DNA of 64,000 bases from Pedobacter sp. MC2016-14 (GTDB lineage Bacteria > Bacteroidota > Bacteroidia > Sphingobacteriales > Sphingobacteriaceae), in the NCBI RefSeq assembly GCF_020991475.1, contig NZ_JAJMPA010000003.1, positions 620,001 through 684,000 on the forward strand, written 5' to 3'. The notes under the pieces are model-generated. The model was not told the DNA's origin. It searched no databases and was given only the letters and a program-made list of their open reading frames with translations. This document shows positions 8,122-13,100 of the stretch, piece after piece. Numbering within the stretch: position 1 is the stretch's first letter; each line of letters starts with the position of its first letter. A program made the translations under genes and the position numbers.

Positions 8122-8457
8122 TTAATATTTACGTGACAAATGGACTTCTTCATAAGCACCAATCAATTTCTTTTGCAATGATATTACTTCATTCTGCAGT
8201 CCGGCAATAATAGCATCCTTATCCTGCGTCAATTGATCTATAATTTCTGCTGATGAATTATCAGTTAAAAGGCTGTCAGTAGTTACCTCAAAAAGGTCGG
8301 CAATTTGCTTAAGTCTGGTGATATTGATGTCAGTTATACCAGTTTCAATTTTAGAATACGCAGGGATAGAAATTCCAATTTGAACTGCTATTTGCGCCTG
8401 AGATTTCCCCTGCTTCTGTCTTAAACTACGAATTTTTCTACCTATTGTCTTTTCCAT
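8122..8457 (-). CDS. XRE-family transcriptional regulator
   Basis: A 111-residue cytoplasmic DNA-binding protein. Residues 5-62 form a Cro/C1-type helix-turn-helix (IGRKIRSLRQKQGKSQAQIA then IGISIPAYSKIETG). After a short linker comes a coiled-coil-like tail (QLTQDKDAIIAGLQNEVISLQKKL) that probably dimerises. It is monocistronic, shares a terminator with the convergent sigma operon, and lies downstream of an AT-rich 125-bp gap. No phage genes surround it, so it is more likely a chromosomal regulator than a prophage repressor. Target genes unknown. Confidence 0.9.
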   Translation of the reverse strand: MEKTIGRKIRSLRQKQGKSQAQIAVQIGISIPAYSKIETGITDINITRLKQIADLFEVTTDSLLTDNSSAEIIDQLTQDKDAIIAGLQNEVISLQKKLIGAYEEVHLSRKY

Positions 8458-8582: not shown

Positions 8583-10997
8583 CTATAACCTAAAATTCAA
8601 AGAGACGTATGGGTACCATCCTTCAACAGAATGGCCAGCCAATATTTGAAATATAGTTAGCCCCGCAGGTGCAAAATAGACACCACCACCTTTTCCCTGG
8701 TGCCACTTATCAGATTGTTCAGCTGCCGACCATACTCTGCCAACATCGTAAAAACCAGTAAGTCCAAGTTGACCAGGCAGTATATAACTGGCAATATTCG
8801 CCAGTTTTAACCTTGCTTGAAAGTTGTTATATATCATATGCCTACCTGCAAATCTATACTGCAGATAACCTAGCAAATTCCCCTGTCCCCCTAAAAACAT
8901 AGATTGATAAAAAGCAGGATTTCCCCCACTAACACCCCCACCAATTCTGTTAGATAAAACAAAAGAACGGCTTTTATTTATGTTCTGGTATACTGTAAAT
9001 TCCGGTTTAATTTGAAAGTACGATTTCGAATAGACGTTTAAGCCAGAATACCCTTGCAGTGATATTTTTAGATAGTAACCTTTTGAAGGTAAAACATCAT
9101 GATCTCTATGTTCTGTTATAAAATTCATCATTACTCCAAGGTGCATTCTATCTTGATCCAATGTTAAACCATCATAAGAACTTACGGCATCTACTTGATT
9201 AATAAATCGTCCTTCATTACCATCTTTATTTAGGTGATAGTATTGAAAAGATGGTCCTGAACTAAAACTAGAATTACTACCCAACAACCATCTCAAGGCA
9301 GGATCTACCTGATAAGTATCAAACCTGCTCCTGTAAAATGTCTGGTATGTCCCATTTTTATTTAAAGTTGTTTCATTACCAAGGCCAAAGAAATTAAACG
9401 TATTATCTGGTGCCTGGGCAAATGCCTGTAAAGTAAAATCTGCCTTACCTAGTACTTTAATCCATTCACCACTATACCGAACGCGAAATGCAGCAGTAGC
9501 AAAAGAACGCATCAACATAAGTTGCTGAACATTTGAATACGGGCCCTTCCTGAAACCATCTTTTCCGATGTACTTAAAACCTACGCCCAATAAAAATCCG
9601 TCGTCTGCATTAATTGCAGCTGTAGCCAAAGGCATCCAAACATTGTATAAATTTACAGGAACAAAGCCTATGCTATCTTTACGTGCAATCCTTAGTTTAA
9701 TACCAGATCTTTCTGCAGCGTTTACCAGGCTATCATTATCAGACAAATACAAACGGATTTCTTTAGTGATAGTATCAGAGAATGTATAATTCATTAAAGT
9801 ATCCTTTGGCTGTCCATTCTTACTCAATTGCTGAATTTCTACTCTTAAGCCATTTCCAGGCACCGCTGTTAATTTAACCAGTTCTTTTTTATCACTGGTT
9901 TTAATGTCTACAATTCTATTTGAAAACCTGTAAAAGGAGGCCATTGCAGCGGGGATGCGATCTCTTCTCTTCTTCAACTGCTCAAACAATTCATCAAAAC
10001 GCAATGCATAAACTTCTTTAGGTAATCTGCTTAATCCCGCCTTTAATACTTCATCTGTTTCGGCAGCAACAAATTCATTGGCAAGGCGCATCCATTCCGA
10101 TAAACTGAGGTTAGCGTCGGGATACCCATTCATGAACCGAGTTTTAAATAAAACATATTTTGGTCTTGAAAGTTCAGCATCAAAATTACCAAAAGCAGGG
10201 TTAATCCATGGCAAGGCGGCTATTCTTGGAAACAAACCTTGATTTACGTGAAAAACCTGATCCCTGTCACGTGGTACAGCCTCATATACTTTACCACTTC
10301 CGCTCTTCACATCCCGCCACCTCCACTGATCTTCGTGACGGTCCCAATCCCCCAGTAGTAAATCCAGCATCCTGGCCCGTAAAAATTGTCTCGCATCAAA
10401 ATGGTCATCATTGTCTTGCTTAAGCGCTTCCAGCATTTTCGTGGTATTGTCAGAATCGCCAGCAGGTTCCCGTTCTTCCAGCAGCACAACCATACCTTTA
10501 AATGCCTCATTAAAGGTGCCCAACGCAGCATCTTCGGCCAGCATACCTATAATTGGATTTGCATGGTGAACACCTGCTGCTGATGCCAAAGGTGGCACAA
10601 TCAAAGCAGAAAACGGATGCTGTGCACTCATCGCATCATCCACCCAATCTAGTGCAAAAGTGCCTCTTAAATTTTCAGGCAGCAGCTTATCCGGAGTTTT
10701 CTCTACACTTCTTATCACCCACTCCTTTCCTGTTTTATCCTTTAACCGCAGTGATTTTGATTGCATGCCTCCACCTTCCTTAACCGGAAAAAGACCACCA
10801 TGTATAGTAGAAATCCTGATGAGCGGTACTTTAACATTTGTAGCCCACTCCTTCCTGTAATTCTCACCAAAAAACCATCGGTGTATTCCGCTCACTTTAT
10901 CATAAGAAGGGTGTACTTTTACTTCCACGCTATCAGGATGTTGCGCAACAGCACACGTAGTAAAAAGAAGAAACATTAAGGTAAAAGTTTTTTGCAT
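8583..10997 (-). CDS. Outer-membrane BamA/Omp85-like barrel protein with kinase-like periplasmic region
   Basis: An 804-residue exported protein; the ATG at 10995-10997 gives a clean signal peptide (MQKTFTLMFLLFTTCAVAQ), while the longer GTG start would lie inside the promoter. Residues about 20-330 form a periplasmic region with EWVIRSVEK (about 92-100), LLLGDWDRHEDQW (213-225) and PRDRDQVF (242-249). These resemble the beta-3 lysine, catalytic loop and metal-binding Asp of Fam20/CotH/HipA-like kinases. The C-terminal third has strand patterns of a surface-antigen (D15) barrel and ends in a typical YPYVSLNFRL strand. From memory, related Bacteroidota proteins carry an extra N-terminal metallophosphoesterase domain, which is absent here. 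Role unknown; enzymatic activity is inference. Confidence 0.75.
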   Translation of the reverse strand: MQKTFTLMFLLFTTCAVAQHPDSVEVKVHPSYDKVSGIHRWFFGENYRKEWATNVKVPLIRISTIHGGLFPVKEGGGMQSKSLRLKDKTGKEWVIRSVEKTPDKLLPENLRGTFALDWVDDAMSAQHPFSALIVPPLASAAGVHHANPIIGMLAEDAALGTFNEAFKGMVVLLEEREPAGDSDNTTKMLEALKQDNDDHFDARQFLRARMLDLLLGDWDRHEDQWRWRDVKSGSGKVYEAVPRDRDQVFHVNQGLFPRIAALPWINPAFGNFDAELSRPKYVLFKTRFMNGYPDANLSLSEWMRLANEFVAAETDEVLKAGLSRLPKEVYALRFDELFEQLKKRRDRIPAAMASFYRFSNRIVDIKTSDKKELVKLTAVPGNGLRVEIQQLSKNGQPKDTLMNYTFSDTITKEIRLYLSDNDSLVNAAERSGIKLRIARKDSIGFVPVNLYNVWMPLATAAINADDGFLLGVGFKYIGKDGFRKGPYSNVQQLMLMRSFATAAFRVRYSGEWIKVLGKADFTLQAFAQAPDNTFNFFGLGNETTLNKNGTYQTFYRSRFDTYQVDPALRWLLGSNSSFSSGPSFQYYHLNKDGNEGRFINQVDAVSSYDGLTLDQDRMHLGVMMNFITEHRDHDVLPSKGYYLKISLQGYSGLNVYSKSYFQIKPEFTVYQNINKSRSFVLSNRIGGGVSGGNPAFYQSMFLGGQGNLLGYLQYRFAGRHMIYNNFQARLKLANIASYILPGQLGLTGFYDVGRVWSAAEQSDKWHQGKGGGVYFAPAGLTIFQILAGHSVEGWYPYVSLNFRL

Positions 10998-11026: not shown

Positions 11027-11034
11027 CAAAGCTA
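11027..11034 (-). promoter_or_regulatory. Candidate -7 element for the barrel-protein gene
   Basis: On the minus strand this reads TAGCTTTG, an exact TAnnTTTG match 29 nt upstream of the ATG at 10997. It overlaps the alternative GTG start at 11027, arguing for the ATG. Confidence 0.4.
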
Positions 11035-11052: not shown

Positions 11053-11673
11053 TTACAGTGATATTTTTAGCTCTGTATTGGCAAAGCCCAGCGTTTCAAC
11101 GGCATGGTGACTTACCACCAATGTAGTGGCATTAAATGTGAGCAATAAAGCCTTTAAGTCAATGATTAACTCTTCTCTCAAATCTTCATCCAATGCAGAA
11201 AAGGCTTCATCCATCAACAGTAACCCAGGTTTTGTAACCAGCGCCCTCAAAAGCGCTAGTCGCTGTTGCTGCCCACCAGATAACTGATGCGGCTTATGCT
11301 GTACAAAGGCTGTCATTTTACCCATCTCCAACAAGCCATCTATCAACGCCACGTCAGCAGAACAGTAGCTTAAATGCTCCCGCACTGTCATATTCGGAAA
11401 CAAAGCATAATCCTGAAATACAAACCCTGTTTTTCTCTTTTGAGGACTTAAATTAATGCCTTTTGCAGTATCCAGCCATATATCCCCATTTACTTTAATA
11501 AAACCGCTTTCGGGCAAAACTAATCCAGCCAGAATTTTCAAAAGTGTAGTTTTTCCCGAACCAGAAGGGCCATAAATTTTAGTGATAGAACCACGCTCAA
11601 AAACATGGTTTACTACCAGTTGCGTTTTACCCTTATAGGTTTTTATCTGTTTTTCAATTGAAAGTTCAATCAT
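11053..11673 (-). CDS. modC: Molybdate ABC transporter ATP-binding protein (short form)
   Basis: A 206-residue ABC ATPase that powers molybdate import through ModB. Visible motifs are Walker A GPSGSGKTT (about 35-43), the Q-loop FVFQDYALFP, the signature LSGGQQQRLALLRAL, Walker B LLLMDEAFSALD and the switch His in VVSHH. It ends right after the ATPase core. Classical ModC proteins of about 350 residues carry a C-terminal TOBE/Mop molybdate-binding domain, and that is missing here, so feedback by molybdate must occur elsewhere or not at all. It overlaps modB by 4 nt (ATGA), as expected for a coupled operon. Tungstate or sulfate as substrate cannot be excluded. Confidence 0.88.
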   Translation of the reverse strand: MIELSIEKQIKTYKGKTQLVVNHVFERGSITKIYGPSGSGKTTLLKILAGLVLPESGFIKVNGDIWLDTAKGINLSPQKRKTGFVFQDYALFPNMTVREHLSYCSADVALIDGLLEMGKMTAFVQHKPHQLSGGQQQRLALLRALVTKPGLLLMDEAFSALDEDLREELIIDLKALLLTFNATTLVVSHHAVETLGFANTELKISL

Positions 11674-12341
11674 TCCAGCGGTCCGTTAGCAGAATTTCTA
11701 TTAAACAAAAACACCAGGATCACCATACTAAAAGTAACGGCAAACAGTACCATTGCGTAAAGATTAGCCTCAGCAAACTGGTTAAGTTCTACAGCATCAT
11801 AAATGGCAATCGAGGCCACTTTTGTAACGCCATCAAGCTTTCCGCCAATCATTAATACAACCCCAAACTCACCCAGGGTGTGTGCAAACGTTAATACCGC
11901 CGCCGTATATAAAGAAGCTTTAATATTTGGCAACTGCACACGATAGAAGGTTTCCCATTTCGATTTCCCTAATGTATACGAGGCCTCGACAAGTGAAACA
12001 GGAAGATGGGCCAGAGCAGATTTTATTGGACTGATCATAAATGGAAGACTGTAAATCACAGAAGCTACAACAAGACCTTCAAAAGAGAAAACCAGTCTAA
12101 GGTTAAAATACTTCAAAAGCCAGCTTCCTAAAATACTATTGGGACTTAAAGTTAACAGCAAATAGAACCCTAACACAGAGGGTGGCAAAACCAGGGGCAT
12201 CGTTAACAACGCCTCAATCAAAATTTTAAAAAATGAACTTCGCCTTGACAGCCAGTATGCCATCGGAACGCCAATAAAAACAAGAATAATTGTGGTAATG
12301 CCAGCCAACTTTAAGCTTAGCCAAATAGGTGTCCAATCCAT
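11670..12341 (-). CDS. modB: Molybdate ABC transporter permease
   Basis: A 223-residue inner-membrane permease with five to six hydrophobic segments (for example about 10-30, 43-67, 85-105, 138-160 and 190-215). It carries the EAA-type loop that docks the ATPase (VEASYTLGKSKWETFYRVQLPNI) and the LPLVLPPSVLGFYLL segment typical of ModB. It lies between modA (6 nt upstream) and modC (4-nt overlap). Length fits the ModB family. No unusual features. Confidence 0.92.
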   Translation of the reverse strand: MDWTPIWLSLKLAGITTIILVFIGVPMAYWLSRRSSFFKILIEALLTMPLVLPPSVLGFYLLLTLSPNSILGSWLLKYFNLRLVFSFEGLVVASVIYSLPFMISPIKSALAHLPVSLVEASYTLGKSKWETFYRVQLPNIKASLYTAAVLTFAHTLGEFGVVLMIGGKLDGVTKVASIAIYDAVELNQFAEANLYAMVLFAVTFSMVILVFLFNRNSANGPLE

Positions 12342-12347
12342 TATCGA

Positions 12348-13100
12348 TTATACTCCATATCCATACTGTTTAAAAATCGATTTAGCTGCAGGAGAAAAAA
12401 GATAATCATAAAACTTCCTGCTATTTAAATAACTGCCGGATTTGGCATGTTTAAGCAAAACACATCCCTGCCGTATGGGCTTATAAGCAGATTTATCTAT
12501 TCTGAGCCATTTCAGCTGCGTACCCTCTGGCATTTCATACACCAGCGATTCTGTTGTAAAACCCAGTTCGACTACTTTTTTAACAATATAGGTGTTTACC
12601 TGATTGATACTTTCACCAAAAACGAGCTGCCCTGAAATTGCTTTATATAATTTAAAATGGTTTAATGCCTCTTCCGCAGCTTTTCCATAAGGAGCAGTTT
12701 TTGGATTTGCTACTGCAAATTTCACTATGGTAGCGGTAGAAACAATCTTTTTCCAGTTTCTGACATCAGCCCCACTAGCAGAACAAACAATTAAACTTCC
12801 GGTCGCATATTCACGAGGTTTAGATAAAGCAAAACCCCTATTATAAATGAGTTCAGTAAATTCCATATCAGCAGAAAGGAATACATCATAAGGAGCACCG
12901 CTCTGGATCTGAGAACTTAATTTGCCTGATGAGCCGCTAATGATCTCTACAGTAACTCCCGTTTTATGCTCAAAATCTGCCTTAAGCTTTTGCAATACGA
13001 ATTGTGCATTCGCTGCAACAGCCACCCTAACGGTTTGGGCCTGAACTGAAAAGCCTATAAATAGAATTATGACTCCTAACTGCAGTTTCAATTTACACAT
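12348..13100 (-). CDS. modA: Molybdate ABC transporter substrate-binding protein
   Basis: A 250-residue periplasmic binding protein with a signal peptide (MCKLKLQLGVIILFIGFSVQA). The mature N-terminus VRVAVAANAQFVLQKLKADFEHKTG is characteristic of ModA. SGSSGKLSSQIQSGAPYDVFLSAD supplies the serines that hydrogen-bond the oxyanion, and a NPKTAPYGKAAEEAL segment forms the second-lobe site. It is followed by modB and modC, and preceded 16 nt upstream by a UBP-type zinc-finger gene. No molybdenum-cofactor genes or Mo-dependent enzyme are in the window. Confidence 0.93.
   Translation of the reverse strand: MCKLKLQLGVIILFIGFSVQAQTVRVAVAANAQFVLQKLKADFEHKTGVTVEIISGSSGKLSSQIQSGAPYDVFLSADMEFTELIYNRGFALSKPREYATGSLIVCSASGADVRNWKKIVSTATIVKFAVANPKTAPYGKAAEEALNHFKLYKAISGQLVFGESINQVNTYIVKKVVELGFTTESLVYEMPEGTQLKWLRIDKSAYKPIRQGCVLLKHAKSGSYLNSRKFYDYLFSPAAKSIFKQYGYGV

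Follow-up and report, generated by a model that had tools for sequence, protein, structure and literature searches.

The window analysed here is a 64,000-nucleotide stretch of the Pedobacter sp. MC2016-14 genome (contig NZ_JAJMPA010000003.1, positions 620,001 to 684,000). Its minus strand encodes, at 8583-10997, a protein of 804 amino acids (ATG at 10997; stop codon at 8583-8585); GTG at 11027, in the same frame, could also start it but is the less probable choice. The protein comprises, in order, a signal peptide, a kinase-fold domain, a beta-rich linker, and an Omp85 barrel. The signal peptide, residues 1-18 (MQKTFTLMFLLFTTCAVA, with Q as the next residue; 10944-10997, minus strand), was read from the sequence, lacks a lipobox, and has a counterpart in the hydrophobic N-terminal segment found across the family. 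The mature protein (residues 19-804) contains no cysteine. A preliminary description had proposed an exported protein with three motifs in kinase order, and this is borne out: EWVIRSVEK is followed by LLLGDWDRHEDQW and then by PRDRDQVF.

Genes resembling modA, modB, and modC (molybdate uptake) lie directly upstream on the same strand (11053-13100), separated by 55 bases. This short gap suggested an operon with modABC, which was rejected: the arrangement occurs in none of 80 related loci, and the gap contains TAGCTTTG (11027-11034, minus strand), a possible Bacteroidota -7 element (TAnnTTTG) that may mark a promoter belonging to the gene itself. A mobile-element origin is likewise unsupported, with no phage match; the five plasmid matches each show less than 60% identity, and all are non-mobilizable. 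Downstream, about 125 bases past the stop codon, is a small helix-turn-helix (XRE-like) gene on the same strand (8122-8457).

The carboxyl-terminal part (residues about 453-804; 8586-9641, minus strand) is an Omp85 barrel, as the preliminary description had stated. It is recognised by NCBIfam and by Pfam (PF01103, E 3e-10, 40.4 bits against a cut-off of 24), and its fold best matches BamA, Sam50, and TamA. Modelled from end to end, the mature protein (pLDDT 85) shows the kinase fold, the beta-rich linker, and a barrel of 16 strands. The linker domain (residues about 362-439; 9681-9914, minus strand) is drawn from this model, in which confidence is low just past the linker; the corresponding linker of relatives carries a GGDGxD-like motif. 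Pfam finds no POTRA domain in the protein, and the model places the kinase fold and the beta linker in the N-terminal part. Some Omp85 classes lack POTRA domains (PMC4104836).

By itself, the sequence of the N-terminal region gives little away. The first 450 residues have no significant Pfam or NCBIfam match, and single-sequence searches of Pfam, NCBIfam, and PDB with the N-terminal domain also returned nothing. Structure prediction and fold searching, proposed in the preliminary description, were more informative. Aligned with 86 counterparts taken from the species collection (87 sequences in all), the window domain was modelled by AlphaFold2 with high quality (pLDDT 91, pTM 0.90); residues 19-360 (9918-10943, minus strand) form a two-lobed kinase fold in the model. 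Every top match among solved structures is a kinase. Foldseek against PDB ranked PI4K-II-alpha first (E 6e-5) and CotH next (E 9e-4), followed by Rio2, PI3K, WaaP, and a HipT complex. A second aligner, for which Z of 7-8 is given as typical of models without a clear match, placed five kinases above that range: PI4K-II-beta (Z 14.7; 258 residues; rmsd 4.4 A), CotH (Z 13.5; 245 residues; rmsd 4.2 A), CtkA (Z 12.8; 241 residues; rmsd 5.4 A), actin-fragmin kinase (Z 10.8), and HipA (Z 10.6). In a viral structure library, PI3/4-kinase-like proteins came out on top, the best match being annotated as a PI3/4-kinase, with one CotH protein lower. Fam20C is not among the best matches listed by either program. 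The rmsd values of 4-5 A imply that the relationship to known kinases is distant. A kinase fold for this domain is close to certain.

Sequence comparison, which does not depend on the model, points in the same direction. A family profile built from 92 diverse members identified a single solved structure below E 0.01: CtkA, with E 0.0018. The runner-up stood at 0.058, and with a smaller profile CtkA reached 0.1. The alignment starts at the catalytic loop, pairing GNFDRHNGNW of CtkA with GDWDRHEDQW of the window protein. In profile-profile comparison the best match was CotH (E 5.5e-4), whose catalytic loop and DxD motif line up with those of the family; four unrelated control families scored 0.17-0.39, and HipA gave a match too weak to rely on (0.08). 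Pfam kinase models, including CotH (PF08757), HipA_C (PF07804), Fam20C (PF06702), and PI3/PI4 (PF00454), matched none of 87 members, even when E values as high as 5 were allowed. The domain therefore belongs to none of CotH, HipA_C, and Fam20C but forms a branch of its own that is so far uncatalogued, and no Pfam or NCBIfam model covers it. The suggestion of a Fam20- or HipA-like kinase is supported in part: the fold is that of a kinase, and the nearest known kinases are PI4K-II, CotH, and CtkA rather than Fam20. These results also bear on the notion that this is an ordinary Omp85 assembly or secretion protein, whose N-terminal domain has no kinship with kinases and resembles them by coincidence of motif. 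Recognition by Pfam and NCBIfam of the barrel only is what such a protein would present, but fold, profile, and conservation evidence all speak otherwise, the second-aligner and CtkA profile matches strongly so, and we regard this reading as very improbable.

The active-site residues were examined across 178 distinct domain sequences. The four aspartates singled out in the preliminary description are nearly invariant: D217 (177/178), D219 (175/178), D244 (177/178), and D246 (174/178). Neither outcome that the preliminary description named as refuting a kinase, an unrelated predicted fold or loss of these aspartates in most homologues, was observed. Also nearly invariant are R220 (175/178), H221 (173/178), W225 (175/178), and E174 (175/178); each of D217, D219, R220, H221, D244, and D246 is at least 97% conserved. 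D219, the predicted catalytic aspartate, lies in the motif DWDRHEDQW (residues 217-225; 10323-10349, minus strand), aligned with NFDRHNGNW of CtkA. The predicted metal-binding motif DRD (residues 244-246; 10260-10268, minus strand) is conserved and follows at a CotH-like spacing: 25 residues separate D219 from D244, and 23 separate D228 from D251, the catalytic pair of CotH (PMC7821199). A conserved glycine-rich loop, GGGMQSKS (residues 75-82; 10752-10775, minus strand), runs between two N-lobe strands of the model, with G75-G77 retained in 169-176 of the 178 sequences. The beta-3 lysine proposed earlier would be K100 in RSVEK (residues 96-100; 10698-10712, minus strand), but K100 sits just past the modelled strand (residues 92-97), whereas R96, equally conserved (each 175/178), sits inside it. 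The role of nucleotide-binding lysine would fall to one or the other.

One position departs from the usual pattern. Q224 occupies the place of the usual metal-binding asparagine, five residues beyond D219; this position is Gln in 166 of 178 sequences, Asn in 10, and Asn in CtkA. HipA and PI4K-II likewise have Asn there. In addition, D219 or D246 is missing from five copies (L037, L038, L039, L173, and L181), each of which lacks one or more further residues of the set R96, K100, D219, H221, D244, and D246. Such joint loss is the pattern expected of a catalytic site, and these five are probable pseudokinases, to judge by their residues. Several catalytic residues are replaced together in the copies at L038 (4126-5160), L039 (3559-4590), L037 (3472-4485), and L173 (9689-10747). 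The L038 copy is near a PPK1 gene, and at L039 an intact copy adjoins the changed one. At L181 (7125-12150), three barrel-less kinase-fold copies stand in a row, at least one with a lipobox and one with Ser in place of the catalytic Asp.

The substituted glutamine, the want of a Pfam kinase match, and the few pseudokinase-like copies all count against a kinase. A different proposal is that the domain is a non-catalytic module that binds a nucleotide, a phosphate compound, or a protein partner, serving as scaffold or gate for the barrel in place of the POTRA domains that Pfam fails to find. The glutamine and the persistence of some broken-motif copies fit this proposal, as does a periplasm poor in ATP. 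Binding by itself does not readily account for a catalytic residue set that more than 97% of the 178 sequences retain and that is lost in groups, nor does a barrel accessory account for the several relatives that have the domain without any barrel. We consider this alternative unlikely, though the most serious of those weighed here; catalysis by the kinase-fold domain is predicted, and likely.

How widespread is the family? With the N-terminal domain alone as query, matches were found in 90 of 151 genomes of the host's taxonomic family; in 113 of 296 sampled Bacteroidota genomes (profile search); and, as at least 583 relatives, of which 80 were kept, in a collection of 84,980 species. The family occurs throughout the Bacteroidota. 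The host genome has one detected paralogue, an 862-residue open frame 35-37% identical to the window protein. Two architectures predominate among 177 distinct sequences: domain plus barrel (81; about 860 residues), and calcineurin-like phosphoesterase plus domain plus barrel (81; about 1,210 residues). The remaining 15 are shorter forms without a full barrel, including some lipoproteins, some proteins with a membrane anchor, and a few contig ends or split frames. In the phosphoesterase-bearing relatives examined, the kinase-fold domain separates the phosphoesterase from the barrel. The window protein lacks the metallophosphoesterase domain by Pfam, so the earlier guess of a kinase-only version was right for this copy; the host paralogue lacks it too. 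Because 174 of 177 members have a hydrophobic N-terminal segment (simple hydropathy test), the domain is essentially always exported. A quick tree was drawn from 124 domains; its supported branches require that the architecture with phosphoesterase was gained or lost 10 times or more, so that domain plus barrel is seemingly the stable core and the phosphoesterase a module.

Related loci tend to share neighbours, counted within the locus fetched around each copy. Same-strand neighbours of the 34 phosphoesterase-bearing copies include PPK1 (19), HD-PycTM (23), SdiA-regulated (26), and GAF (26) genes; for the 49 copies without phosphoesterase, the corresponding counts are 14, 18, 17, and 15. A PAP2 phosphatase is also among the neighbours of family members, and 20 wider loci from the phylum yielded HD-PycTM matches in 14 and PPK1 in 2. 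The host paralogue (L042, contig C1, 2543000-2553000) sits with PPK1, SdiA-regulated, and GAF genes; a second PPK1 of this genome is on contig C5. At L061 (607-1851), as at many family loci across the Bacteroidota, a protein likely combining an HD domain with PycTM (Pycsar effector) is encoded beside PPK1 and the kinase-barrel gene. This recurring neighbourhood ties the kinase-fold family, though not necessarily the window copy, to phosphate or polyphosphate metabolism. In a Flavobacterium johnsoniae study of phosphate starvation, a PPK-like gene was strongly induced, and none of the genes given there is recognisable as a member of the kinase-barrel family (PMC8115612). Riemerella anatipestifer OMP76 was considered as a relative and rejected; it is a TonB-receptor-like protein (PMC10281475).

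Phosphate metabolism would suit such neighbours (PPK1, PAP2 phosphatase, HD-PycTM) as well as signalling does, and the domain might then use its kinase fold for other chemistry: AMP transfer; nucleotide or polyphosphate breakdown; or phosphate-ester scavenging. Some kinase folds do AMPylate, SelO being one, and a phosphoesterase is frequent in the same chain. Yet the glycine loop, DRH loop, and DxD follow in ordinary kinase order, and nothing in the data examined points to another reaction. We judge it improbable.

Computation thus assigns the window protein an export signal, an outer-membrane barrel, a kinase fold, conserved residues, and a family; from these we infer its activity, the side of the membrane it faces, its phosphate donor, and its substrate. 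The reading that we favour, with some reservation, is of an atypical kinase anchored in the outer membrane, facing the periplasm, and transferring phosphate. The protein would be exported by the Sec route and held in the outer membrane by its Omp85-type barrel, with the N-terminal domain hanging in the periplasm, as the topology of other Omp85 proteins suggests. D219 would act as catalytic aspartate, D244 and D246 as metal ligands, and R96 or K100 as the nucleotide-binding basic residue. The recipient of the phosphate would most likely be a target in the periplasm or the outer membrane. Roughly half of the relatives have a calcineurin-like phosphoesterase on the same chain, which could take the phosphate off again.

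The strongest objection to this favoured reading is that ATP is not known to be available in the periplasm. Polyphosphate as donor would meet the objection and suit the linkage to PPK1, although PPK1 itself is cytoplasmic. A still broader picture, of a phylum-wide extracytoplasmic phosphorylation system in the Bacteroidota, with barrel-borne kinases, often a phosphatase in the same chain, and polyphosphate or an exported nucleotide as possible donor, is at present speculative and rather doubtful.

Extracytoplasmic kinases are rare in bacteria, and the phosphate donor becomes the question. Here is a domain with intact kinase residues, unassigned in the family libraries searched, that in most relatives is joined to an outer-membrane barrel and in many to a phosphatase as well. 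It belongs to a large, so far unnamed Bacteroidota family and hints at phosphorylation chemistry outside the cytoplasm; if active, it would make periplasmic or outer-membrane phosphorylation directly testable in a phylum prominent in gut and soil. The preliminary description knew of no described class with a periplasmic kinase-like domain on a barrel, and in the open-access literature we too found no such domain or Omp85-kinase fusion; a description may exist elsewhere.

The closest described relatives on the barrel side are the proteins combining PF00149 with Omp85, named the 'Metallo' class by Heinz and Lithgow in 2014; PF00149 was read as a metalloprotease, and a kinase domain goes unmentioned in the passages on that class (PMC4104836). 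Pfam likewise sees PF00149 and an Omp85 barrel in relatives of about 1,200 residues, whereas the window protein lacks PF00149; one 1,200-residue relative has it.

On the kinase side, PI4K-II is the best structural match, but these are eukaryotic lipid kinases without a barrel, 11-14% identical to the window domain; PF00454 has no match in 80 sampled Bacteroidota genomes, the host included. The spore-coat protein kinase CotH offers the second-best fold and the best profile-profile match, and its D228 and D251 correspond in position to D219 and D244; however, no member of the 87 matches PF08757, and CotH proteins form a separate family in the Bacteroidota. CtkA, a Helicobacter pylori kinase, shares the DRH loop, the fold, and the family-profile match, but has no barrel, and has Asn where the window family mostly has Gln. 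Fam20C and HipA share the DRH-type catalytic loop and, for HipA, the fold, but their family models match none of the 87. Fam20 kinases have conserved disulfides, and the mature window protein, having no Cys, lacks the cysteines to form them. CotH, PI4K-II, and CtkA are closer relatives of the domain than are Fam20 or HipA.
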